A stretch of 30,542 bases of DNA from a virus: IMG/VR virus record IMGVR_UViG_3300004369_000088, positions 1 to 30,542 of that record; one strand, 5' to 3'. How positions within the stretch are numbered: the first letter of the stretch is position 1; each line of letters begins with the position of its first letter. Both the position numbers and the translations under genes were made by a program. This document shows positions 1 through 20,454 of this stretch, piece after piece. A model generated the notes under the pieces. It saw only the letters and a list, made by a program, of their open reading frames with translations. It did not search any database and was not told the DNA's origin.

Positions 1-1251
1 TGACATGTCGTAAACTGTAGGCACTTCATTTAATCTCCCCTGCGTTAGCAAACCAAAATCAGTTAAATCAAAAGTGCTTTCGTTAAGTGTCATCTTTGGT
101 GCGGATAAATGCGAGAAAGTCCACGCTGTCCAATTTATGTTATTAGTATTCATATAATCGGTTAATGGCTGTCCGAAACTATCTCTATCCTTTGCAGCCA
201 ATAAGTAAAACCCACCATCTTCTAAGTCATACCCCCATTCGGATATAAATACTGGTATAGTATCAGATGCGTCGCCAAATTTTCCATCTAATGACGTAAT
301 TTTTGTGTCTAGTGTAGTTGCTGCGACAGGATTTCCGAGATAATCCAATCGTGACCCTCCGGGTAAATGTCCGGGATAGATATGTTCAACATAAACAAGA
401 TTAGTTCCAGTTAATGGAGATGCAGGTACTTCATCAACCTTTTGGCACCACAACGGGGTAGGCACTAATATAATGTTGTCAGGGGCTATTGCTCTTACAT
501 AATCTACCCAACCTTGCACGAAAGGTTTAAAGTCAACCCAATCATTGCCTAAGGCCGTAGACGTAATAGGCTCGTTAAATATCTCAAATAAAACATGCGG
601 CAAATTTTTATATCTGGTAGCCGCAATATCCCAAAACGCTTTTAAACTTGTGTCAACTGATACTGTGTCCCAATTCTCTATAGCATGATAATCTATTATA
701 GAATAAACGCTATTTGTCTCAGCCCACTCAACAATTATATCTACAAAACTACTAAGAAACTCTTCTATTCCATAGTTATCTAAGTACGCCGGGGCGCATG
801 GGACGCGGATTATGTTCATACCCGTGAATTGTCCTAATCCGTCTTCGCAATAGTCTATACCCCAACCATTAGCAAACTCGTTTCCAGCTTCAGGTAAAGA
901 TACTCCTTTTAATTGTATATCAACGCCATTTGCTTTTATTTTATTTCCAACTACCGACAAAGCTGGTAAGGTTGCATTAACTCCTGTATAATCTAAACCA
1001 TTATTTCGAGATGCCGCCCTAGCGATGGTTGCCTGTGCCTCACTCATACCATAAGCTGAAATAGCTTCTTCCGTTATTGGTTCAACAACCCAGTGTTTGC
1101 CTACTTTCTTAGGATTTGAATTATACCAACTAGTTGTCTGCTGAGCGGTTGGGTTAAGGTTCCCATTCTTTCGCCCGACAACAGGAAACCAGTCACCGTT
1201 GAGGTCGGTGGATTTTGCTTGTGCTTCCCCTAAAGTGCGGTATTTGGTCAT
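1..1251 (-). CDS. Glycoside hydrolase family 5 (endoglucanase-like) tail enzyme, C-terminus cut by window edge
   Basis: The open frame runs from ATG at 1251 to the left edge without a stop, giving 417 residues. Residues 1-90 look like a virion-attachment or linker region. From about residue 95 the sequence has a GH5 TIM-barrel signature: Arg149 (NIIRVP), His189 (IIDYH), the acid/base pair Asn226-Glu227 (LFEIFNEP), His290 and Tyr292 (VEHIYPGH), nucleophile Glu338 (PVFISEWG) and Trp377. These are the residues conserved in GH5 retaining beta-glycanases such as cellulases and mannanases, so the enzyme should be active. No signal peptide is seen, as expected for a virion protein. It lies at the end of the fibre region, after a LamG-type lectin gene, which suggests a tail-borne depolymerase. 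The exact glycan cannot be read from sequence. The start follows the previous stop closely, with only a weak G-rich ribosome site. Confidence 0.88.
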   Translation of the reverse strand, partial: MTKYRTLGEAQAKSTDLNGDWFPVVGRKNGNLNPTAQQTTSWYNSNPKKVGKHWVVEPITEEAISAYGMSEAQATIARAASRNNGLDYTGVNATLPALSVVGNKIKANGVDIQLKGVSLPEAGNEFANGWGIDYCEDGLGQFTGMNIIRVPCAPAYLDNYGIEEFLSSFVDIIVEWAETNSVYSIIDYHAIENWDTVSVDTSLKAFWDIAATRYKNLPHVLFEIFNEPITSTALGNDWVDFKPFVQGWVDYVRAIAPDNIILVPTPLWCQKVDEVPASPLTGTNLVYVEHIYPGHLPGGSRLDYLGNPVAATTLDTKITSLDGKFGDASDTIPVFISEWGYDLEDGGFYLLAAKDRDSFGQPLTDYMNTNNINWTAWTFSHLSAPKMTLNESTFDLTDFGLLTQGRLNEVPTVYDMS

Positions 1252-1256
1252 TTCAA

Positions 1257-2075
1257 TTACAACCCCCATTTATTTGTTAAAAGATTTTCGACAAGTGCTT
1301 TTTCCTGTGCTGTTAACGGCCTGTTATATAAAACAACTTCAGCTATATTTCCACTAAGATAATATTCCCCCCCGCTACTATCCCTATTTCTACCTAAGTT
1401 GACTCCGTCTAACGAAGCCACATCGGAGAATGAGACTCTGTTAACATCGCCATTAACCTTTACACCGTCCACTGATATAACTGATTTATCGCCATCCCCG
1501 TCCGCTGTGTCCGATGTTTGATAAGTATATAAAAATGGATTCGCAGATGTATAAGCCCCAAGAAACTCTTGTCCAACCGCATATAAACCCGTGCCATTAT
1601 TTCTAGATAAAAGACCTATTGTACTAGAAAGTGTTTGATGTGCATGTTCCGAGCTAGGGTCTCCAGTATCACCAGCACTGAAAAATGTATGTCTGGCTGT
1701 AGAGTTTGTTTTGCCAACGATAAACAACGTGTATTCACTGTTCGCCTGTAGTGTTGCCAGCATACTATCCACAGTCATAAAATCACTAACACCATCAAAC
1801 GTTATTACATTTTTTCCGTTTATAGTATCACTACCTGTTATTGGTTGGTCGCTCCCTACGCCTTGTATAGCATGGTTACCACTTGAAGACTTATCGTCCC
1901 ATTGAGATACAAGCCCGGCAAGTTGGGTTATGGTTGATGCGTCAAAGGCATCTAGCCATAGATTTACACTATCCATATACGGCATCGACACTAAACCTGA
2001 ATAGGTAAACGATGCAGGGAGTTTCTTTATATTCCTTACATCCCTATTTTGATGCGCTGCTGGTATTCTGACCAT
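1257..2075 (-). CDS. LamG / concanavalin A-like lectin-fold virion protein
   Basis: This 272-residue protein has one laminin-G-3-type jelly-roll domain from about residue 35 to the end. It opens with a Trp/Asp-rich strand (LWLDAFDA), has the FDGVSDFM strand in the middle and closes with GNIAEVVLYNRPL...KWGL, the usual ending of this family. Such domains usually bind carbohydrate and are not catalytic. It lies directly upstream of the GH5 enzyme (stop 1257, next start 1251), so it is likely a co-produced spike or fibre component that holds the enzyme on its substrate. A related domain is fused to the L-like tail protein at 12435-14129. The ATG at 2075 has AGGAGG only two bases upstream, so a start at a nearby downstream Met is possible. 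Confidence 0.8.
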   Translation of the reverse strand: MVRIPAAHQNRDVRNIKKLPASFTYSGLVSMPYMDSVNLWLDAFDASTITQLAGLVSQWDDKSSSGNHAIQGVGSDQPITGSDTINGKNVITFDGVSDFMTVDSMLATLQANSEYTLFIVGKTNSTARHTFFSAGDTGDPSSEHAHQTLSSTIGLLSRNNGTGLYAVGQEFLGAYTSANPFLYTYQTSDTADGDGDKSVISVDGVKVNGDVNRVSFSDVASLDGVNLGRNRDSSGGEYYLSGNIAEVVLYNRPLTAQEKALVENLLTNKWGL

Positions 2076-2081
2076 AACCTC

Positions 2082-2681
2082 CTATACCCACCAATAAGTT
2101 AGAACATCTGTAGCCCCAAAACCTACAGCGGTTACGCTAGTCGCAGCGGGAAATATAAGAGACTGTAGACTACCTAAATACACACCACCATCCCCAGACG
2201 CATCACTGGCCACAGGAAACTCAGTCATGGTCATACCGTCAATCGTATGAGTACCTGTACCTGCGTCGGATATGGCTATTTCCGTACCCGCTAGGGCATT
2301 AACCTTTGTCGTAGCTAACTGAAAAACATCCGGGTCTGTAGCATCTGCGATTACGTAGTAGTCTGTAGCGGCACTTAGTCCAGTAGGTAGTGCTGTCGTT
2401 GTGGTCAGCTGGTAAGGCCCGTCTCCTGTTTCGTATTCATGCGCTACTCTGGTTAAATTATTATTGGCGAAATCCGCTGCTGTAACAACCAATGCAGCAA
2501 AGTTACCAACCTTAATCCGGAAAGAACCCTGATCTACCATTACTACGAGACTATTAGCACTGCCCGATTTACCTGTAGGGCGTATTAGCTGTGTGGGTGT
2601 TAAACCTACACAGTAGTATATGTCACCACTCAAAGGTAGTGCACCTAGTTTTTCTGGTCCGAGTGGTGTTTGTCCGCGCAT
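2082..2681 (-). CDS. Virion structural protein, probable fibre/baseplate component
   Basis: A 199-residue protein of short beta strands with no membrane segment or signal peptide. Residues of about 85-150 form a module with a YYVIADATDPDVFQLATT...GTGTHTI pattern that recurs in many phage structural proteins. The start has AGAGGA seven bases upstream. It lies between a fibre-adaptor-like gene and a LamG-like gene, so it is probably part of the host-contact apparatus. No enzymatic motif is visible and I cannot name a specific family. Confidence 0.65.
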   Translation of the reverse strand: MRGQTPLGPEKLGALPLSGDIYYCVGLTPTQLIRPTGKSGSANSLVVMVDQGSFRIKVGNFAALVVTAADFANNNLTRVAHEYETGDGPYQLTTTTALPTGLSAATDYYVIADATDPDVFQLATTKVNALAGTEIAISDAGTGTHTIDGMTMTEFPVASDASGDGGVYLGSLQSLIFPAATSVTAVGFGATDVLTYWWV

Positions 2682-2698: not shown

Positions 2699-2986
2699 TT
2701 AATTTGTTACTATCTCTATCCAAAAGGAGGACTGTTTTATCCTACCTGCGGCAGTTGTAATCGTATTGGTTAATTTGTACCTATTCTTATTAGTACCGCC
2801 TTCCACCCACGCCGTAGCTGTTGTGGTAGTATTAGATACAGCAGGGGATGAAGATATTGTCAGCCCTGTGTCAACCGCCCAAACACTGCTGGCGATTGTG
2901 TCAACCCCTAACCAAGTGGCCCAATTGACTGTGTAATCAAGCTTCTCGTCAGGGTCTTTTCTTTTTATAGGTATTTCATCAGCCAT
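2699..2986 (-). CDS. Fibre-tail adaptor-like small virion protein
   Basis: 95 residues starting MADEIPIKRK. An in-frame TTG at 3004 would add six residues, but the ATG at 2986 is the more natural start. The pattern DYTVNWATWLG.DTI..S.W, then a Thr-rich loop, then NTITTAAGRI...FWIEI matches a widespread short phage protein often annotated as a phage fibre-tail adaptor. It has an all-beta, Ig-like composition. It sits among fibre genes. A copy of the dispersed GCAAACG-type palindrome lies just upstream at 3000-3013, with an AT-rich stretch before it. Confidence 0.7.
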   Translation of the reverse strand: MADEIPIKRKDPDEKLDYTVNWATWLGVDTIASSVWAVDTGLTISSSPAVSNTTTTATAWVEGGTNKNRYKLTNTITTAAGRIKQSSFWIEIVTN

Positions 2987-2999
2987 ATTACGTATTCCG

Positions 3000-3013
3000 T
3001 GCAATCGTTTGCA
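3000..3013. repeat. Dispersed palindrome copy 1 (TGCAATCGTTTGCA)
   Basis: One mismatch from the perfect palindrome TGCAAACGTTTGCA. It lies in the short gap upstream of the adaptor-like gene, about 36 bases beyond the start that would follow a TATAAT at 3050-3055. It is one of eight copies in the window. Confidence 0.8.
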
Positions 3014-3749: not shown

Positions 3750-4286
3750 CTAAATTATTTTATTTTCTACTTTAGCAACTTTTTCTTTACCCCTAAACCA
3801 CGAAGTCACACCCATTATAGCACCCCAGGCCATCATAACTTCGGGTGGCATACTCACTGAAGCCAGAGGAGGAGGCGGTACATTAAACCAAGGAAACACG
3901 AGAGAATTAACGATAGCGGGTAGGCCATAGTTGCAAAATAATGTAAGCCCGAAAGCCAGTCCGTTAAGGGGCCGCCAACTCCACTGTAACCAGTGCTCAC
4001 TTTTACTTTCTGCGCGCATAGTTCTGTTTACTGATTCTATCCTAGCAGTCTCGTTATCCATGACTATCTTTTGTAGAGCGGTCTGATTATCCATCTGGTA
4101 TTTTTTCAGCTCTACTATCTGTTCGCTTGTTGCACGCCCGAGTGCTTCGTCTACGCCCTCGGGCGTATTATCGCATCCTAGTATATCCGCTACTATTCCG
4201 GCTATAGCCGTTCCTCCCGGAATAGTACTGCTCAATAAATTAAGACCGTGCTTAGCTAATTTCTTTCCTACCTTATCCCAATCCAT
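3750..4286 (-). CDS. Holin, GTA-type 3TM family
   Basis: 178 residues. The segment around residues 86-107 (VNRTMRAESKSEHWLQWSWR) is the hallmark of the '3TM holin for gene-transfer-agent release' family. Hydrophobic segments lie at about residues 15-36, 108-130 and 149-164, and the C terminus is charged (FRGKEKVAKVENK). This fits a pore-forming inner-membrane protein that lets the endolysin reach the periplasm. It follows the endolysin gene with a one-base gap and has GGAG eight bases before its ATG, so the two are co-expressed. Confidence 0.8.
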   Translation of the reverse strand: MDWDKVGKKLAKHGLNLLSSTIPGGTAIAGIVADILGCDNTPEGVDEALGRATSEQIVELKKYQMDNQTALQKIVMDNETARIESVNRTMRAESKSEHWLQWSWRPLNGLAFGLTLFCNYGLPAIVNSLVFPWFNVPPPPLASVSMPPEVMMAWGAIMGVTSWFRGKEKVAKVENKII

Positions 4287-4287
4287 A

Positions 4288-4716
4288 TTAAATTCTCCTC
4301 TCTAAATGGCAAATATCGTGAAGTCTTTGGTCGGTGGTGTCAAAGTCACCGTCCCAATCCGCTCCGCATCTCACAGGTGTACCCAATAAAGCTGCCGTTG
4401 CCATAAATATACCCACCGCCATATAATAACCCGGCTTATCTTTCTCTTCATAGGTCGGTTTACCATTAACATAAAGTATAAAGTCAAAGGCATCAGAATA
4501 TTCTCTTAGAGGTGCTTCTATATTGTGTTTACTGTTAGGCCACCGTACCCTGCTCGTGCCCGCAAAAAACGCAGCGTCTTGCGCTTCCTTATCCCTTGCA
4601 CCACACGTAATCCCAAAATCAAATAACTGAAGGTCCATAACCTTCGTTGCAATCGTTTGCAGGTTCGGGTGGCATGTTGCCAAATTAGCCAGAGAGCGTT
4701 TACCTAGTACGAACAT
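4288..4716 (-). CDS. Endolysin, M15-family L,D-/D,D-peptidase
   Basis: 142 residues. Zinc-site residues are visible: Ser62-x-His64 (SKH), Asp78 in the A-x-D element (SDAFDF) and His137 in DICHLE. The stretch RCGADWDGDFDTTDQRLHDICHLE is typical of phage M15C peptidases such as L-alanyl-D-glutamate endopeptidases. It should cut peptide cross-links or stems in peptidoglycan at lysis. No signal peptide is evident, so export depends on the holin encoded next. The ribosome site AAAGGGG is well placed. A copy of the dispersed palindrome lies inside the gene at residues LQTIAT. Confidence 0.88.
   Translation of the reverse strand: MFVLGKRSLANLATCHPNLQTIATKVMDLQLFDFGITCGARDKEAQDAAFFAGTSRVRWPNSKHNIEAPLREYSDAFDFILYVNGKPTYEEKDKPGYYMAVGIFMATAALLGTPVRCGADWDGDFDTTDQRLHDICHLERRI
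4648..4661. repeat. Dispersed palindrome copy 2 (TGCAATCGTTTGCA)
   Basis: Inside the endolysin gene, where it encodes L-Q-T-I-A. It is identical to copy 1 and one base from the perfect palindrome. Confidence 0.8.
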
Positions 4717-5433: not shown

Positions 5434-6444
5434 TTAACCAACTCGTCCATAAGTAGCTAAGGTGCCCCCATCAATGTTACCGGAACTACATACGATACCT
5501 ACCAACAGAACAGCGGTGGCTGTATCTATACCTCCGAAGAAAGTACCTCCCTCCATTCTACCTGACGCTGCATCTCTATAGGTGAAATGTCCATCATATT
5601 CAAGATAATTCGTAGCGTCAGAAGGATGGTAAAAGTTTATAACAAAATTACATGCTTCTGTAGTCGCATTACCTAAGTTGTTTATAATAGGAACGTTGGC
5701 AGCTGATGTACTAGCTGCGGCAGAATAAGATGTGCTACCATCCGTCTTAGTCTCTATATGGTAGGAGTACCCTGCTGATTCAAAACTAGTGCCGTTTGTA
5801 CTTACTCGCATGTCGATGTTTACACCATCCGTCGCTACCTCGATTCCCGTGCCTACGAAGGTAACTATACCCCACCCCGTACCTACGGTAAGTGCTTGGT
5901 TGGTAGCGGGAGTAGATGACATATCTACCGCAGCTAATAAATGACCAAAATCCCCTCCGTGTGCGGCGAAGGCAGGTGCTGCACCCGTTGTAGGTATGGT
6001 CAGGGCCTGTCTTGTGGTACCTGCGGGTATTACGTAAGGAGCACCTGCTGTTGTATAACCTAGTACGTCCCCTATGGCCTGAGGTTTAAGTATTAAACCA
6101 GAAGCTGACCTAGATAGGAATACTTCATCTGCTTTTACCCGTAAGGCTGACACGTTATACTCTAGTCCCGGGTTCGTGTCCAACGTCAACGCCGGAGATA
6201 TTGTGAACGTATGAGCGTTGGAATCTACAATGAAAAATTCTAAATCGTTTGCGCCATCGTAAAAATATACCGTCCATATCGGGTCGGCTGTATCATCTAC
6301 CCACATACTGCACGCCACGACAGAAGCGGGACGACTAGGCCCTCTATTCATACTATTAAAAGCAGCAAAGACGTTATTTATCTCTGCTCTCATGGCTAGA
6401 CCCGAAGGATTTGCCGCTATACTAACGTCAGTTACTTGAGACAT
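5434..6444 (-). CDS. Tail fibre protein (second of tandem pair)
   Basis: 336 residues. The first 80 or so align by eye with those of the upstream gene product: both begin MSQ.TD, then GLA.R.E.N, then WVDD...W.IY.FDG..D. A second shared element is TNPGLEY/F...L..K at about residues 92-110. This indicates a duplicated attachment domain with diverged tips. The C-terminal part (about residues 180-336) is beta-rich, with Cys and Asn repeats and no enzymatic motif. It is probably a fibre or receptor-binding protein attached at the same virion site as its paralogue. Confidence 0.72.
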   Translation of the reverse strand: MSQVTDVSIAANPSGLAMRAEINNVFAAFNSMNRGPSRPASVVACSMWVDDTADPIWTVYFYDGANDLEFFIVDSNAHTFTISPALTLDTNPGLEYNVSALRVKADEVFLSRSASGLILKPQAIGDVLGYTTAGAPYVIPAGTTRQALTIPTTGAAPAFAAHGGDFGHLLAAVDMSSTPATNQALTVGTGWGIVTFVGTGIEVATDGVNIDMRVSTNGTSFESAGYSYHIETKTDGSTSYSAAASTSAANVPIINNLGNATTEACNFVINFYHPSDATNYLEYDGHFTYRDAASGRMEGGTFFGGIDTATAVLLVGIVCSSGNIDGGTLATYGRVG

Positions 6445-6451
6445 ATATCAC

Positions 6452-7759
6452 CTAAAAACTTATAATTACAACAAAACCATTTTTACCTGCGATACCCGCT
6501 ACTCCCCCTGCCGCTCCACCTGCACCACCACTACCCACAGAATAAGCTAAAGTAGCACCTACTGTCTGGGATGTGTACACCTGAGCAGATAAACCACCTT
6601 GACCACCGTTCCCACCTATTACGTTATTACCACTACCTTGATACTGAATACCCGCACCTCCACCGTTACCGCCGCCGCCAGACATATTTAGTGCACCCCC
6701 GCTGCCTGTACCGTCTGCCTGCTTGGATAAGTTATTTATACCTCCCTGTATGCCCCCAATACCTCCAGATGCCGACTGAGAACCAAAAGAACTGCTCCCT
6801 CCATTAGTGCCCGGATTAGTCTGAGCGGCAGAGCCACCCCCACCGGCACCCCCTACGATTACTATAAAGTTTGCGCTTAGAATTGTGAAATTACCCGAGC
6901 CGCTTGTGTAGACCGTCATGGCCGATGGCCCTTTAGCTATGTTCGCTGCAATGTTCGCGTAATCTGCCATTATACCTGCACCACTTAATGACAATCCCGC
7001 ACCCACTTTTGCCAATAACTTACCCGAACTAAATTCTAGGCCCGGGTTCGTTCCTATGTCCACTGACAATCTACGCGCCTCGTTACCCCCTCCGTTTAAG
7101 GTAGCCATAGCGATACCATCACCTATAACGATCTTATCTTCTACAAACCCCGGGGTTGTATCATCCGCAGATACCTTCATATTTCCCGCATCCGAAAATA
7201 CTACCGCTTTAAATGCGGTACCTGTACAGTGCACAAAAGCTGTATCGTTTAAGTTTCTAAGAACTAACGTAGTATCCCCATTTATTAACTCACCACCAGC
7301 AGGGTCTATCGTTATCGTATTCGCTGTAGCATCATTTTTAGTAATAATAGCATACCAACCTAACCCTAGCGTAGCCGCTGCTGTTAAATTCGAGGTAAAG
7401 CTCGCAGTGGTCGCATCACAGAATATCCCCTTACCTGCATGGGTACCATCCAACGTGTGCGTGGCAGCCTTGTCCACCGTGGCGTTTAAAAAGGATATAA
7501 GGGACGTTCCGGAAGGCACAAAGGTATTCGCGGAAATATTAACTACACCTATTGCTATATCGTCCGTGCCATCAAATAAATAAATTGTCCATACAGGTGC
7601 GGACGAATCATCAACCCACAACATACCACCTACAGCATACGTAGGGCGCACGTTACCTGTGTGGTTAGAGCCTATGGCAGTCAGTATACTATTTAATTCG
7701 GTTCTCTGTGCAAGACCCGTTATTGCTGCTGCTAATGTTATATCTGTTGACTGTGACAT
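6452..7759 (-). CDS. Tail fibre / glycine-rich adhesin (first of tandem pair)
   Basis: 435 residues. The N-terminal region of about 80 residues is shared with the next gene product and probably attaches the protein to the tail. A middle beta region (about 90-290) follows. The last 130 residues are strongly glycine-rich, with many GG, GGxGG and GGGG runs, ending GKNGFVVIISF. This kind of C-terminus occurs in phage fibre tips, including polyglycine-sandwich adhesins such as T-even gp38 types, where the loops between Gly runs contact the receptor. The gene follows the J-like gene in the usual position for side or tip fibres. Confidence 0.75.
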   Translation of the reverse strand: MSQSTDITLAAAITGLAQRTELNSILTAIGSNHTGNVRPTYAVGGMLWVDDSSAPVWTIYLFDGTDDIAIGVVNISANTFVPSGTSLISFLNATVDKAATHTLDGTHAGKGIFCDATTASFTSNLTAAATLGLGWYAIITKNDATANTITIDPAGGELINGDTTLVLRNLNDTAFVHCTGTAFKAVVFSDAGNMKVSADDTTPGFVEDKIVIGDGIAMATLNGGGNEARRLSVDIGTNPGLEFSSGKLLAKVGAGLSLSGAGIMADYANIAANIAKGPSAMTVYTSGSGNFTILSANFIVIVGGAGGGGSAAQTNPGTNGGSSSFGSQSASGGIGGIQGGINNLSKQADGTGSGGALNMSGGGGNGGGAGIQYQGSGNNVIGGNGGQGGLSAQVYTSQTVGATLAYSVGSGGAGGAAGGVAGIAGKNGFVVIISF

Positions 7760-7814: not shown

Positions 7815-10800
7815 CTAAGTTACAAAACCGTAGCCACGAGCTACATAGTCGAATGTTCTAGATACAGATGCAGACGCTGAATTAAAAAACTCTATATCGA
7901 AACCCGCAGCCGTTTTATTATCAATTACCCAGTAATCCCCTTGTTGTAGGTTCTGCGCCGCGATACCTATAGCAGGGCTTGCGCCCCTAAACGGAGTAGA
8001 GTAAGTAATTGTACTACCGTTAACGGCGACGACCAAGTTATCTCCACTTCGTAGGCTATCTGGCATATCAACCGTGACAGTCAGGCTGGTAACTGTGGGA
8101 GTAACTGTAGAGAAAAAGGAGAATAGTTTTAACCTAAACTCAAAAGCCCTTGCATTATAATCACCCACACTAAAATTCAACCACTCCGTCCACGTAGGAG
8201 TACCTGCTGGGTCATCGTCCGTAGTACGCACCTGCAATTGAATATCCCATTGACCCTCTTCCGACCCGTCTACGTTAAGCACTGCGTCTACGTTATCCCA
8301 TCCGTCCACACTATTAATTAGGTTGTTACCCGCCACATCAATAGCCGCTGATAACCTTGATGTATATACGGCACCTAAGTCCATAGAGTTATTGAATGTG
8401 TAAGTACCTTCCGCTATAACCGTACCCATACCTAGGTCGATATTATCCACAGCGTCTATATCGGCTACAGCGTCCATATCATTACCTGTAATATCCAACT
8501 GTATAGTATTATCTATCACAATCACATTATCTAAACTCCCCAAGAAATCCGGGTGCTCATTGACATCTACTACGAAGTTGAAGTCTTGGAAGAAATCAAC
8601 AGAAGTAGATAATGCTGTAGAATTAACGCTAGACACTCCCGAAGGAAAATCGACTGTGGCTAGAGTAACCGCCTTAATCAAGAATGACCCCGCCCTACTT
8701 AACGTGGCAACGCTAGTAGCGTCTTTAGGTACCTGTACAAATAGTACCTGTGACGTATTCCACGTAGCACCGACCACCGCAGTGTTATACCTTATTTCGT
8801 AATGAGATAAGTTGACCGCGTTAACTGCGGTCCATGATAACTCGGAAGTATTACCTAGTGGAGTTATATCAAAGTCCGTAACATCCGGTGGTGGCGTACT
8901 GTTTATAGTAAGGTAAACGGTATCTTCGGTTACATAAGGGCTAACATTACCGAATACATCTAAGGCTCTCACCCGAAAACCCCACAGACCATCATACGTT
9001 GGTCGTACATCAGCACCCACGCCCGAAGTAATAGACACCAACTCATAGTTATTATTACCCCCCGGCCTCCTAGCCTCTAGCTGGTATTTAACTACTCTTG
9101 AGTCCGTGGAAGCTTCCCACGAAATAGTCACCGCTGATTCAGAAAATACACCATTTCTATATAAATATTCCGTATGAGATATACTTAAAGGAGGTAGTAT
9201 CTGGCCGTCGGTGAGTCGAGAAAAGTTAAAAGGAGGTAGTTTAACATCGTTTTCAACGAGGTCAAATTTACCAGAAAAATAAAGTAAAGCGGTAATTACA
9301 AATTCATTATCTCCGTTCTCTGTAAGAGATATTACCCTGAACTGTCTAGGTTGTAAGTCTGTAGCGGTCACTATCCACATTGCGTTAGCCTCGGGGGCCG
9401 TAGTGAAGTCAGGTGTTACACTGACCGTGCTATACGTACCTGCACCATCCGTGATTGTGCGACTATCCAAGTTACCGTTAGGTAATACTATATCTATAGT
9501 ATATACCTGATCCGCAGCCAGTGTGATGCTGCTGTCGAGCGTCACCGTGCTGACTGTACCTGAGGTGATCCTGCCCCCAAAACGTACATCAGCGTAATCT
9601 TTATCCTGTACTTTTATAATACTACCCGGGCGCACGTCCGCGTCAGCCAAACTAACAGTAAAAGATACCACTTCGGTCTCATTAGACTCCGTGTACAGTA
9701 ACCACCTACCGAAGCGATGCGCTTGCGACCGACGAGTACATCCATACGCAACAATGTTAGTAGGCCTAAACCCGTATTGTTCTATTAGGTCGGCATCCTC
9801 CACCGCTTCTATAGCCGCTTGGTAGCCATCCTCGGGGTCGTTCCACGTTACGTACGCCACGCTGTGTCTTGTATTCAGGGCGCTACCACTATAACTAAAC
9901 AGACCACCTATAACATTTGCTTGGTTGTATATTTTCTCTGCATCTTTCGGCATATCGTTAATTACGGTAACTATTCCGGAATCACCTGCTGCCCCCCAGT
10001 ACATCATACCCTGAAACACGCTTGCAACCGTTTGCAGTATGTGCAACGCTTCTGCTTGATTATCAATTACAGCATTAAACGTAAACCGTGGCTCTAAATT
10101 ACCCGCCCCATCATCCACTAAGCCATCACAGTACTGTGCTATAGTATACAAACCGTACTTATCCACTTCGGCAACGTCAACATGCCCTCCTATACCGTAC
10201 CTATCATTAGTAATAAGGTCGTATAAAACCCACGCAGGGTTATCCGAATATAACGTCTGAAAAGTACCATCCCATACCCCTGTATATACGCGGGTAAGGG
10301 GATCATAGTTTGTAGGAACTTTAATCTTTATACCCTCTACATCATAAGACCTGACGGGTACAGATGCCCCGAATAACGACCCATCTACGCTTATACCTAC
10401 TATAGCAGTATCCGGGTACATCAATTTATTATCTATAATTCTAGTATACCTAGAAAAATATAGATCGTTAGACACATTAGCCAACAGATTATCCGCGGTG
10501 AGACGGGTAACTTTTATATTCCAAGGAGCAGACCCTGTTAGTGTCATACGATAACTGCGTTCATAAGGTGAAAGTGTTTTACCTGTTATAGTATCAGTGA
10601 CCGCGTCTACATAGCTACCCCCATCAGGCTGGTACGATACTTTGAATTGTACGGAAGAACCATTAAGGTCACCATTGGAGGTATCTTGTGCGCTCAGCGA
10701 AGGTATTCTTATAGTAACAGAGACAGCATCGGTATCTGCATCGGTTACCGTGCGTACAATGGGGGTTGCAAACTCAACTTTTACGCCAACGTTAAATTCC

Positions 10801-11105
10801 TCTTCTACGTTCGAAAAACCATTTATTACATCCTGAGAGGGTGTGCCTGTACGGGGTTCTATAGATATACCCTCGAAATTATTAGTCGAATCTGCGTTTT
10901 GTATAGGCGTATTATCTAGATACACGGACTGAAGGCCGTTCACCAAACCGTTGATCTCGCCTTCACTGATAACTTCTACTATCCTAAGCACCGCCTTACT
11001 CTGAAGCGTATTTGGTGCCTCTACAGCTACCCTAGGTCCGGGTTCGGCACCTTTACCACCCTTAGACCCGGATACTAAGCTATTAATAAGCTGGTTAGAT
11101 TTCAT
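7815..11105 (-). CDS. J: Tail tip attachment protein, lambda J-like
   Basis: 1096 residues, close to lambda J (1132). The N-terminal half carries features of the J family: an early VEVISEGEINGLVNG segment, SVYLDNTPIQN and NPAWVLYDLITNDRYGIGG at about residue 295. Further on come fibronectin-III-like segments (about 650-860; SWTAVNAVNLSHYEIRYN) and beta-rich C-terminal domains that probably vary with host. J forms the central tail tip and recognises the receptor. The start overlaps the end of the I-like gene (stop 11102), indicating translational coupling. One dispersed palindrome copy lies at residues LQTVAS. Confidence 0.92.
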   Translation of the reverse strand: MKSNQLINSLVSGSKGGKGAEPGPRVAVEAPNTLQSKAVLRIVEVISEGEINGLVNGLQSVYLDNTPIQNADSTNNFEGISIEPRTGTPSQDVINGFSNVEEEFNVGVKVEFATPIVRTVTDADTDAVSVTIRIPSLSAQDTSNGDLNGSSVQFKVSYQPDGGSYVDAVTDTITGKTLSPYERSYRMTLTGSAPWNIKVTRLTADNLLANVSNDLYFSRYTRIIDNKLMYPDTAIVGISVDGSLFGASVPVRSYDVEGIKIKVPTNYDPLTRVYTGVWDGTFQTLYSDNPAWVLYDLITNDRYGIGGHVDVAEVDKYGLYTIAQYCDGLVDDGAGNLEPRFTFNAVIDNQAEALHILQTVASVFQGMMYWGAAGDSGIVTVINDMPKDAEKIYNQANVIGGLFSYSGSALNTRHSVAYVTWNDPEDGYQAAIEAVEDADLIEQYGFRPTNIVAYGCTRRSQAHRFGRWLLYTESNETEVVSFTVSLADADVRPGSIIKVQDKDYADVRFGGRITSGTVSTVTLDSSITLAADQVYTIDIVLPNGNLDSRTITDGAGTYSTVSVTPDFTTAPEANAMWIVTATDLQPRQFRVISLTENGDNEFVITALLYFSGKFDLVENDVKLPPFNFSRLTDGQILPPLSISHTEYLYRNGVFSESAVTISWEASTDSRVVKYQLEARRPGGNNNYELVSITSGVGADVRPTYDGLWGFRVRALDVFGNVSPYVTEDTVYLTINSTPPPDVTDFDITPLGNTSELSWTAVNAVNLSHYEIRYNTAVVGATWNTSQVLFVQVPKDATSVATLSRAGSFLIKAVTLATVDFPSGVSSVNSTALSTSVDFFQDFNFVVDVNEHPDFLGSLDNVIVIDNTIQLDITGNDMDAVADIDAVDNIDLGMGTVIAEGTYTFNNSMDLGAVYTSRLSAAIDVAGNNLINSVDGWDNVDAVLNVDGSEEGQWDIQLQVRTTDDDPAGTPTWTEWLNFSVGDYNARAFEFRLKLFSFFSTVTPTVTSLTVTVDMPDSLRSGDNLVVAVNGSTITYSTPFRGASPAIGIAAQNLQQGDYWVIDNKTAAGFDIEFFNSASASVSRTFDYVARGYGFVT
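10023..10036. repeat. Dispersed palindrome copy 3 (TGCAACCGTTTGCA)
   Basis: Inside the J-like gene, where it encodes L-Q-T-V-A. One base from the perfect palindrome. Confidence 0.75.
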
Positions 11106-12434: not shown

Positions 12435-14129
12435 TTAGCCTCCAATACCCGGGAACGCCCGAGTAGGTAAGGGGTTATTTCCAAAGCGTAGTCTACATGA
12501 ATCTAGATTTTTTCCGCACTTATCCTCGGAAGAAGTAGAAGTAAAAACATTAGTCTTGGTGAACGAGGCAAGTTCTGTGTAAGGGCATGTTGCATTAGTA
12601 TAGTCAAAGGCCCCTGTATCAGCATCCCACACCCTATACCGGTGTGTACATAAATTACGTAAGCATAGTCGAGCGGGTATCATAACACCTTCTTGATCTA
12701 TGGACGCACCCAGCTCGAATTCTATATAGATTTTGTTATGAACTGCCTTCCGTGTAATCGTATATATTTCTTTTGGATATATAGCCGAGGGGTCGGGGGA
12801 CACGCCATCGTCTAAGAACTTCCTGAAAGTGCGTATACGTGTAAAAGTAGCACCTAACAGATCGTTAACACCTATAACAGCTGACAGTAATATTTTGTTA
12901 ACATTACTGACCTTTATTCTTGGCTGAGGTAGAGAGCCTTGGCCGTTCCACTCAAACCCCTCGGCTTCAAAAGCTATGGGTATATAACTATTACCATTGT
13001 ATACCATAGTATTTTCTAACCTAGTCATACTTAACGAGGATAGCGTAGTAGCGGGAGATGTGGTAGTACCCAGCATCACGTAAGTAAACGTTGTCGGGTT
13101 AATTACTGTAACTATAAAATCCCCAACGTAGCTAGTTTCTATAGGTCCTTTAATACGCACAGCCTCTCCTGTGACCATAGCATGATTTGTTGTGGTCTGG
13201 CATGTAGCTATTAACCCACTACTAGTCAACGAGGCGATGGCAAGTTCTGTATCTATAGAGCTTGTAAAACGATAAATACTACCGCCCACATTTGTAGCGT
13301 CTATTTCATATAGTTTAACCAAACGATCACTGGCTAGAGCCATAGTTGTTTGCTTAAAACTATTAGTGACGTAAATACCCCATTTTTCCCCTAAATGCTG
13401 ATTAAGCTCGGCGGTGTCTACGTCCCCTAAATTGTCGGAGTAGATAATAACCTCACCGACATCACCATTAAAATAAAGTGAAGTCCCCGCTGTTGAGCCT
13501 AAGCTCACGAAGTCTACGGTCGCGACGGATGTTCCTAGCTCGTTGGTGGCTATGATAGCGTTGTTTACTGCAAACGTTTGCAAGGTGCCCGATCTTCGGT
13601 AAGTATATACATTAAACTCATCGGTGGCAACACCTTCAAGTTGTACATGGTCCTGTACTGTGACGGAACATCCGGCTAGTGCTGTGGTTGATGTAAACAC
13701 AGGGGAAGATAGTGCCAATAGTAAGCCCTGCGCGTATCCTGTAATACCAAAGCGCATACCGCAGTTTACTACCCCCGCAGTAGAAAATCCCAGTAAAGTC
13801 TGCATGACGGCAGTGCTACTAGTTTTTGCCACTATCACAATAGTACAGTCACTATTTGGGATAGTGTACAAATCACTAGGTATTTCCAGAGAATCGTCGG
13901 AGCCGTCAAACCTTACTATAGAATTACCGTTAACTATATCCGTCTTAAACAAAGGTCTCGCCCCTGCGGTACCCTGCGTCATTAAATAGCCATTGACTTT
14001 ATCCACCCACTCCAGTGCGGTGTCACCCATTGCTTGCGAGTCCGCGTACAACGTGGAACCATCCGCCGTAGGGTCTACAGCGTCCCACCACGCTTCACAA
14101 TTAGGTGCTTGTATAGGTTCATATACCAT
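12435..14129 (-). CDS. L: Minor tail protein L-like with N-terminal LamG lectin domain fusion
   Basis: 564 residues, about twice the length of lambda L (232). Residues 1-255 are a LamG/concanavalin-A-like domain (AWWDAVDP at the start, IVRFDGSDDS, GDVGEVIIYSDNL...EKWGIYV at the end). The L part begins at about 262 and ends with the Cys-rich region typical of the family: Cys494, Cys515, Cys538 and Cys545 (CGKNLDSCRLRFG). In lambda, four Cys residues of L bind an iron-sulfur cluster. A small beta module is inserted at about 300-356 (HAMVTGEAVRIKGP...FTYVM). The fusion puts a probable glycan-binding domain on the tail tip. One dispersed palindrome copy occurs at residues LQTFAV. Confidence 0.88.
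   Translation of the reverse strand: MVYEPIQAPNCEAWWDAVDPTADGSTLYADSQAMGDTALEWVDKVNGYLMTQGTAGARPLFKTDIVNGNSIVRFDGSDDSLEIPSDLYTIPNSDCTIVIVAKTSSTAVMQTLLGFSTAGVVNCGMRFGITGYAQGLLLALSSPVFTSTTALAGCSVTVQDHVQLEGVATDEFNVYTYRRSGTLQTFAVNNAIIATNELGTSVATVDFVSLGSTAGTSLYFNGDVGEVIIYSDNLGDVDTAELNQHLGEKWGIYVTNSFKQTTMALASDRLVKLYEIDATNVGGSIYRFTSSIDTELAIASLTSSGLIATCQTTTNHAMVTGEAVRIKGPIETSYVGDFIVTVINPTTFTYVMLGTTTSPATTLSSLSMTRLENTMVYNGNSYIPIAFEAEGFEWNGQGSLPQPRIKVSNVNKILLSAVIGVNDLLGATFTRIRTFRKFLDDGVSPDPSAIYPKEIYTITRKAVHNKIYIEFELGASIDQEGVMIPARLCLRNLCTHRYRVWDADTGAFDYTNATCPYTELASFTKTNVFTSTSSEDKCGKNLDSCRLRFGNNPLPTRAFPGIGG
13569..13582. repeat. Dispersed palindrome copy 4 (TGCAAACGTTTGCA, perfect)
   Basis: A perfect 14-bp palindrome inside the L-like gene, where it encodes L-Q-T-F-A, at the end of the LamG part. 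Confidence 0.85.
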
Positions 14130-19830: not shown

Positions 19831-20454
19831 TTAAGTATTAATATATTTAGTTACTTCTTTAAGCATATCTACGTTAGCCAGAACATCATCGAGTTTGTGC
19901 CCTACACCTGATAATAATATAGTCCTAGACCCCTTAGGGAATTGCTGCACGCGCTCCATTAAAGGTGAGTATAACAAAATACCCCCAGCGGTTACCACAC
20001 CGTCCACTTTCACAAGATCATCAGCAAGTCCGTGTATATGTAGTACTTTATTAGGGTAATTCAGCTCATCAAAGAACGTAGTGGATATACCTATCACGCC
20101 TGCAAAATCGTAAGGCACTAACTTTGCCGCGCGGTAGGCCATCATACCCCCCAGAGAGTGTCCTCCTATAAATATTCTGGTAAGAGTAGGGTGCAGCAAA
20201 ATCAAGCGGAATACCAACCCCGATAAGTAGAGAACGTCCATACTAGAATAACCAAACAAACCACCAGCTTGCCATAATTTAGTTTCGTCCGCACTAGGAT
20301 AAACTCTTAACACATCTTGTGGTAAAACATCGTCTATTCTATCGTGGATAAAATCAGGAGTTCCTGTGGCTCCATGTAGCATGATAATCGCCGTATCAAG
20401 CCCTACTAATGTATCAGGTTCCTTAATTATTAACTCTCTTCCTTCGTATAACAT
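19831..20454 (-). CDS. Alpha/beta-hydrolase (esterase-like), cargo gene in the tail operon
   Basis: 207 residues with a full alpha/beta-hydrolase set: oxyanion loop HGATGTP (27-33), nucleophile elbow GHSLGG with Ser100, the acid strand HIHGLADDLV with Asp145, and GVGH with His186. The layout resembles the feruloyl/acetyl-esterase and PHB-depolymerase-like branch (HG.AD, GHSLGG), but the substrate is unknown. There is no signal peptide, so it acts in the cytoplasm or is packaged in the virion. A strong GAGGAG precedes the ATG. The gene sits between the major tail protein and tail chaperones, where lambda has no counterpart, and behind its own terminator/promoter pair. It could modify host or exopolysaccharide esters, or be a lysogen fitness gene. 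Confidence 0.85.
   Translation of the reverse strand: MLYEGRELIIKEPDTLVGLDTAIIMLHGATGTPDFIHDRIDDVLPQDVLRVYPSADETKLWQAGGLFGYSSMDVLYLSGLVFRLILLHPTLTRIFIGGHSLGGMMAYRAAKLVPYDFAGVIGISTTFFDELNYPNKVLHIHGLADDLVKVDGVVTAGGILLYSPLMERVQQFPKGSRTILLSGVGHKLDDVLANVDMLKEVTKYINT

Follow-up and report, generated by a model that had tools for sequence, protein, structure and literature searches.

Enzymes of glycoside hydrolase family GH5 have already been described from several phages and viruses. In Erwinia phage vB_EamP-S6, the two-part protein gp095 carries a C-terminal GH5 domain and degrades carboxymethylcellulose, the cellulose of the host is the first receptor, and the place of gp095 on the phage particle is still open according to a commentary (PMC9544554). 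The Klebsiella phages LASTA and SJM3 encode an endoglucanase, E1, that has been suggested to degrade host exopolysaccharide (PMC10052179). A GH5 enzyme of a peat-bog virus is an active endomannanase that cut mannans (PMC6786970), and a rumen viral GH5 is active on carboxymethylcellulose (PMC10465536). As these enzymes precede the one reported here, a GH5 phage depolymerase is of a known kind. An earlier note on the present DNA had called GH5 uncommon among phage depolymerases; this is correct as to number, but the kind had been published with S6 gp095, and the S6 GH5 domain matches 35 records of the phage collection, mostly from Erwinia, Klebsiella, Serratia and Pseudomonas phages and including three unverified 'Bacteriophage' entries. 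Relatives of the S6 type are found in LASTA, SJM3, SopranoGao, Parlo, PEp14, phiEaP8 and Hena1.

Here we analyse a GH5 enzyme encoded at one end of a viral contig. Similar to S6 gp095 and its relatives, its GH5 domain is C-terminal in a larger protein and probably belongs to a variable host-recognition region. In contrast to the S6 type, which comes from phages of Enterobacterales and Pseudomonas, the present enzyme probably belongs to a siphophage related to alphaproteobacterial phages, and its N-terminal region differs from the choice-of-anchor D region of S6. We propose, with a probability of roughly 0.7, that it is a retaining GH5 endo-beta-glucanase carried by the virion as a tail appendage, where it would cut the beta-1,4-glucan slime of the host.

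The GH5 gene and its catalytic domain

The window, meaning the whole stretch of 30,542 bp that was analysed, is a complete IMG/VR record without terminal repeats, and the edge at which the GH5 frame stops is therefore the contig's own end. The frame is real, as had been claimed; it is read from the minus strand and is cut off by the contig end at base 1. The gene and its parts are as follows.

1–1251, minus strand: GH5 gene, cut short at its 3' end by the contig edge, with 417 residues visible from the ATG at 1251.
970–1251, minus strand: N-terminal region of about 94 residues, with no signal peptide and no relatives found in phages or IMG/VR.
25–969, minus strand: GH5 (beta/alpha)8 catalytic domain, residues 101–415 counted from 1269, located by PF00150, the AlphaFold2 model and Foldseek.
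571–573, minus strand: glutamate codon of the NEP motif, E233 (E227 counted from 1251), predicted acid/base, invariant in three GH5 alignments.
238–240, minus strand: glutamate codon E344 (E338 counted from 1251), predicted nucleophile, invariant in three GH5 alignments.

An alternative in-frame ATG at 1269 would give 423 visible residues, from 1269 down to 1 on the minus strand. Because a Shine–Dalgarno-like GGGGG lies about 13 bases upstream of the ATG at 1251 and nothing comparable precedes the one at 1269, the former is the likelier start. An exact search with a 26-base probe for the gene past the contig edge gave no match, the whole protein had no direct relatives in IMG/VR, and the PHROGs and NCBIfam profiles held no family for it.

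The Pfam search assigned the protein to Cellulase, PF00150 (E=1.4e-36; score 126.8 bits, cut-off 23.5), with a match covering profile positions 2–269 of 272. The eight residues that the earlier note had named (Arg149, His189, Asn226-Glu227, His290, Tyr292, Glu338 and Trp377) are all in place when counted from the ATG at 1251; counted from 1269 they are R155, H195, N232-E233, H296, Y298, E344 and W383, and they are invariant or nearly so in GH5 alignments of 6, 23 and 20 sequences. From what is known of the GH5 family, we take E233 to be the acid/base and E344 the nucleophile. A sequence search of the PDB with the GH5 protein gave 29 matches at E<=0.01 (best 1.1e-24), headed by 5a8m, which is SdGluc5_26A of Saccharophagus degradans, and 4hty, a metagenomic Cel5A, both at about 1e-24. 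An AlphaFold2 model built from a 20-sequence alignment reached a block-mean pLDDT above 90 across most of residues 101–415 (from 1269), with weaker loops near 301–330 and 351–360; the barrel's final helix is at 404–414. With Foldseek, Cel5A 4hty came first among PDB structures (E=1.3e-24) and SdGluc5_26A followed (E=3.6e-24), with CjCel5C also among the closest; identity to 5a8m and 4hty in the fold alignments was 22–27%. SdGluc5_26A and Cel5A have the same catalytic residues as the phage enzyme and are its best solved-structure matches by both sequence and fold. The viral proteins matched by Foldseek include a cellulase from Erwinia phage phiEaP8 and an endoglucanase from Klebsiella phage SopranoGao.

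Profile, hallmark residues and a (beta/alpha)8 model nearest to GH5 glucanases thus bear out the original identification, and the protein is a member of GH5 (clan GH-A). It is predicted to be a retaining hydrolase active on a beta-linked glycan. As the confident barrel model, including the last helix at 404–414, fits within the visible frame, the catalytic domain looks complete, and the missing part is probably only the 3' end of the gene.

The N-terminal region

The extra N-terminal region, previously estimated at roughly 90 residues, amounts to about 94 from the start at 1251. Searched alone in phages and IMG/VR, it found no relatives and matched no known tail anchor; it was modelled at low confidence by AlphaFold2, with helices at 67–73 and 76–90. 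The maximum 13-residue hydropathy ahead of the GH5 domain is 0.5–0.8, which indicates that there is no signal peptide, whereas secreted relatives with signal peptides reach 3.05 (L018), 2.40 (L020), 2.62 (L019) and 2.06 (L023). Of the 73 homologous frames, 33 have a hydropathy window of at least 2.0; the contrast is therefore one with the nearest relatives and does not extend to all homologues as a rule. The GH5 protein lacks the secretion signal of its bacterial homologues that would be expected of a secreted glycoside hydrolase carried as an auxiliary metabolic gene. We presume that the N-terminal region is a virion-attachment or oligomerization part.

Gene neighbourhood and phage identity

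The genes of the structural region are all on the same strand and are ordered as portal, protease, major capsid protein, tail tube-type, tape measure, L, K, I and J. After J come the genes at 6452–7759 and 5434–6444, the endolysin and holin genes and the gene of a 215-aa protein, followed by the gp77-type adaptor, a 199-aa protein, the LamG virion-type protein and, directly, the GH5 gene.

7815–11105, minus strand: tail tip protein J (phrog_31, 2.7e-250; PF24801; PF13550), which marks the tail module.
3750–4716, minus strand: lysis genes, holin-like at 3750–4286 and endolysin at 4288–4716.
2699–3004, minus strand: gp77-type fibre-tail adaptor (PF23148; Pfam 7.9e-25).
2082–2681, minus strand: 199-aa protein with only a weak tail-family match (phrog_2885, E=0.0016).
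1257–2075, minus strand: LamG/concanavalin-like virion-type protein (phrog_10356 virion structural protein, 4.8e-26; PF13385, 6.9e-5, below cut-off).

The LamG gene lies directly upstream of the GH5 gene, with its stop codon starting a few bases before the GH5 ATG, and the two genes are alike in base composition (GC 0.407 for GH5 versus 0.410 for LamG; GC3 0.326 versus 0.315). Modelled alone, the LamG protein had a mean pLDDT of 33, and the model was set aside. The gp77-type adaptor matches 114 phage records, some of which are annotated as minor tail protein. The lysis genes sit between the J/fibre block and the adaptor–LamG–GH5 block.

The closest relatives of the major capsid protein and portal are in Agrobacterium phage JP1 (53%) and Rhodobacter phage RcTiptonus (48%), and those of J are in Rhizobium phages. 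A close relative of J (77%) is also encoded on contig L005, which stops short of the GH5 region. As the genomes of the nearest capsid and portal relatives measure about 94–109 kb, the window is probably a fragment of an alphaproteobacterial siphophage genome.

Lineage of the GH5 domain

In a tree of 45 GH5 domains (IQ-TREE, LG+C20+F+G4 by PMSF), the GH5 of this phage groups with bacterial and haloarchaeal GH5s with a support of 99/93. Membership in GH5_26 was not supported, the enzyme being placed outside the clade of 5a8m and 4hty and in a neighbouring clade, and it falls outside GH5_2 too. The nearest enzymes by tree path are those of L018 (an Alphaproteobacteria MAG) and L020 (a Pseudomonadota MAG), at 30–35% identity; a sister relation to these two was neither shown nor rejected (P=0.34). 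They resemble the phage enzyme in lineage, but lie on bacterial contigs, have a signal peptide and do not have the phage-type N-terminal region.

Two further IMG/VR contigs encode comparable proteins. L016 (3300042923_000676) has, upstream of a CHAP-lysin gene, a frame at 190–2421 for a tail-type protein of 729 aa that carries GH5 at its C-terminus. L017 (3300036790_000015) has an SU10-type adaptor gene and encodes a protein whose C-terminal end is a GH5 domain. In both, as in the layout here, GH5 forms the C-terminal end of a virion-type protein, whereas the N-terminal parts differ. L016 is of another GH5 lineage and groups with GH5_2-like enzymes; L017 also appears to be of another lineage, at a weakly supported and unsure position. 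A single clade of the four phage GH5s (this phage, L016, L017 and S6) was rejected by the AU test at P=0.002, a value to be read with the long branches of L016, L017 and S6 and with the fact that a quick tree had been inspected before the group was chosen. In the same test, common descent within phages with the S6 gp095 GH5 was not recovered, and the lineage of the S6 type differs from that of the present enzyme. Subject to the long branches, recruitment of GH5 by phages thus looks repeated.

Three direct matches in the phage collection (INPHARED), MT835565, MT835628 and MT838263 (L002, L003 and L004), were dropped as bacterial-looking. They are human faecal records labelled 'Bacteriophage sp.'; no phage genes were seen in MT838263, MT835565 has topoisomerase/gyrase-like genes and MT835628 has SusC/SusD-type genes.

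Exopolysaccharide clusters and the likely substrate

Both nearest bacterial relatives lie inside exopolysaccharide gene clusters, one of them xanthan/acetan-like. The GH5 gene of L018 adjoins Bac_transf, WecG, Poly_export (Wza-type) and Wzz genes, and that of L020 adjoins genes for a beta-barrel porin, Poly_export (Wza-type), Wzz/AAA (Wzc-type), a flippase-type protein, GumK, a glycosyltransferase and an acyltransferase. The GumK enzyme introduces glucuronic acid into polymers of the xanthan type. On a third contig of the clade, Bdellovibrio L044, a flippase gene is next to GH5. A putative endoglucanase is likewise carried by the gum-like clusters of Kozakia (PMC5050591). The inference on the substrate draws on the two contigs L018 and L020, since many other homologues of the same clade are cellulase-type secreted enzymes with no evident exopolysaccharide cluster nearby. 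Among 385 genomes of the class of L018, seven had a match (that of L018 included), with flanks too short to judge the context.

The earlier note had offered cellulose, a mixed beta-glucan or a mannan as substrates. The closest structures (SdGluc5_26A, Cel5A 4hty and CjCel5C) and the relatives in exopolysaccharide clusters favour an endo-beta-1,4- or mixed-linkage glucanase. These clusters also make a glucan-backbone slime a better guess than mannan, which is the least supported of the three. Our best guess from the two gene neighbourhoods is that the substrate is cellulose or an exopolysaccharide with a beta-1,4-glucan backbone. What appears to be new here is a GH5 lineage apart from the S6 type, with its nearest bacterial relatives in exopolysaccharide clusters.

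Proposed role of the enzyme in infection

We propose that the GH5 enzyme is a structural component of the virion and forms a tail appendage. Its N-terminal region, at the place taken by the signal peptide in secreted bacterial homologues, would serve for attachment or oligomerization, and may dock through the gp77-type adaptor, whose gene lies three positions upstream of the GH5 gene. Its (beta/alpha)8 barrel at the C-terminal end, using E233 as the acid/base and E344 as the nucleophile, would bind an exopolysaccharide on the host surface, such as cellulose or a xanthan/acetan-like polymer, and cut its internal beta-1,4-glucan links; the virion, held at the slime layer, would then reach a second receptor. 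Location on the virion, substrate and first-receptor role are each what we infer from this analysis. The virion-type LamG neighbour, the nearby adaptor and the LamG-like base composition count for a tail appendage; the separation of the GH5 gene from the J/fibre block by lysis genes and an N-terminal region that has no known tail anchor count against it. To call the enzyme tail-associated, as had been done from the sequence alone, is plausible given the operon context (gp77-type adaptor, LamG), the missing signal peptide and the layout of L016 and L017.

The closeness of the lysis genes would also suit a free enzyme encoded by an auxiliary metabolic gene, produced inside infected cells and released at lysis to degrade plant glucan or mannan in the environment rather than to serve in entry. 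Active viral GH5s have been so reported from the peat bog (PMC6786970) and the rumen (PMC10465536). We consider such a role unlikely here, as the adaptor and the virion-type LamG gene adjoin the GH5 gene, the N-terminal extension has no signal peptide, L016 and L017 have the same C-terminal GH5 layout, and the bog enzyme cut mannans whereas this enzyme is nearest to glucanases. Alternatively, the GH5 fold may chiefly bind polysaccharide as a receptor protein, with catalysis minor or lost; tail spikes commonly combine binding with cutting, and a LamG-type protein is encoded next door. This is less probable still, because none of the eight catalytic and subsite hallmark residues has been lost, which would be unexpected were activity dispensable. 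A bacterial gene at a mis-joined contig edge is highly improbable: although the gene is at a contig end and the three direct phage-collection matches looked bacterial, it follows the LamG stop codon directly on the same strand with no bacterial gene between, has a base composition like that of LamG and encodes no signal peptide.

With the enzyme read as a tail appendage, GH5-based host recognition would reach beyond Enterobacterales and Pseudomonas phages and include a siphophage with relatives among Agrobacterium, Rhizobium and Rhodobacter phages, which points to repeated recruitment of the same enzyme family. Tentatively, we go further and consider it possible, though doubtful, that phages repeatedly recruited GH5s as slime depolymerases and that this one came from the GH5 lineage of xanthan/acetan clusters and was turned on a charged heteropolysaccharide with a cellulose backbone; the literature searched yielded no virion GH5 acting on such a polymer. 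If the link with exopolysaccharide clusters holds, an enzyme in the slime operon of a host would help to predict the enzyme of its phages, and the present enzyme would offer a means of acting on the biofilms of bacteria that form cellulose or gum.

Other genes of the tail module

The two minus-strand genes that follow J (5434–6444 and 6452–7759) encode proteins with similar N-termini (MSQ.TD...GLA.R.E.N) and appear to be a pair of tail fibres that share an attachment part and differ in their distal portions. Minor tail protein L (12435–14129, minus strand) begins with a LamG-like extension homologous to the separately encoded LamG protein at 1257–2075 (27% over 242 columns, E=9e-13), and both match phrog_10356. 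Beside the tail tube-type gene, the tail module contains an alpha/beta-hydrolase gene (19831–20454, minus strand; PF02230, 1.3e-5), whose product also weakly matches a PHA depolymerase model; at the corresponding place, the related contig L005 has an HNH/NUMOD4-like frame (578–1201).
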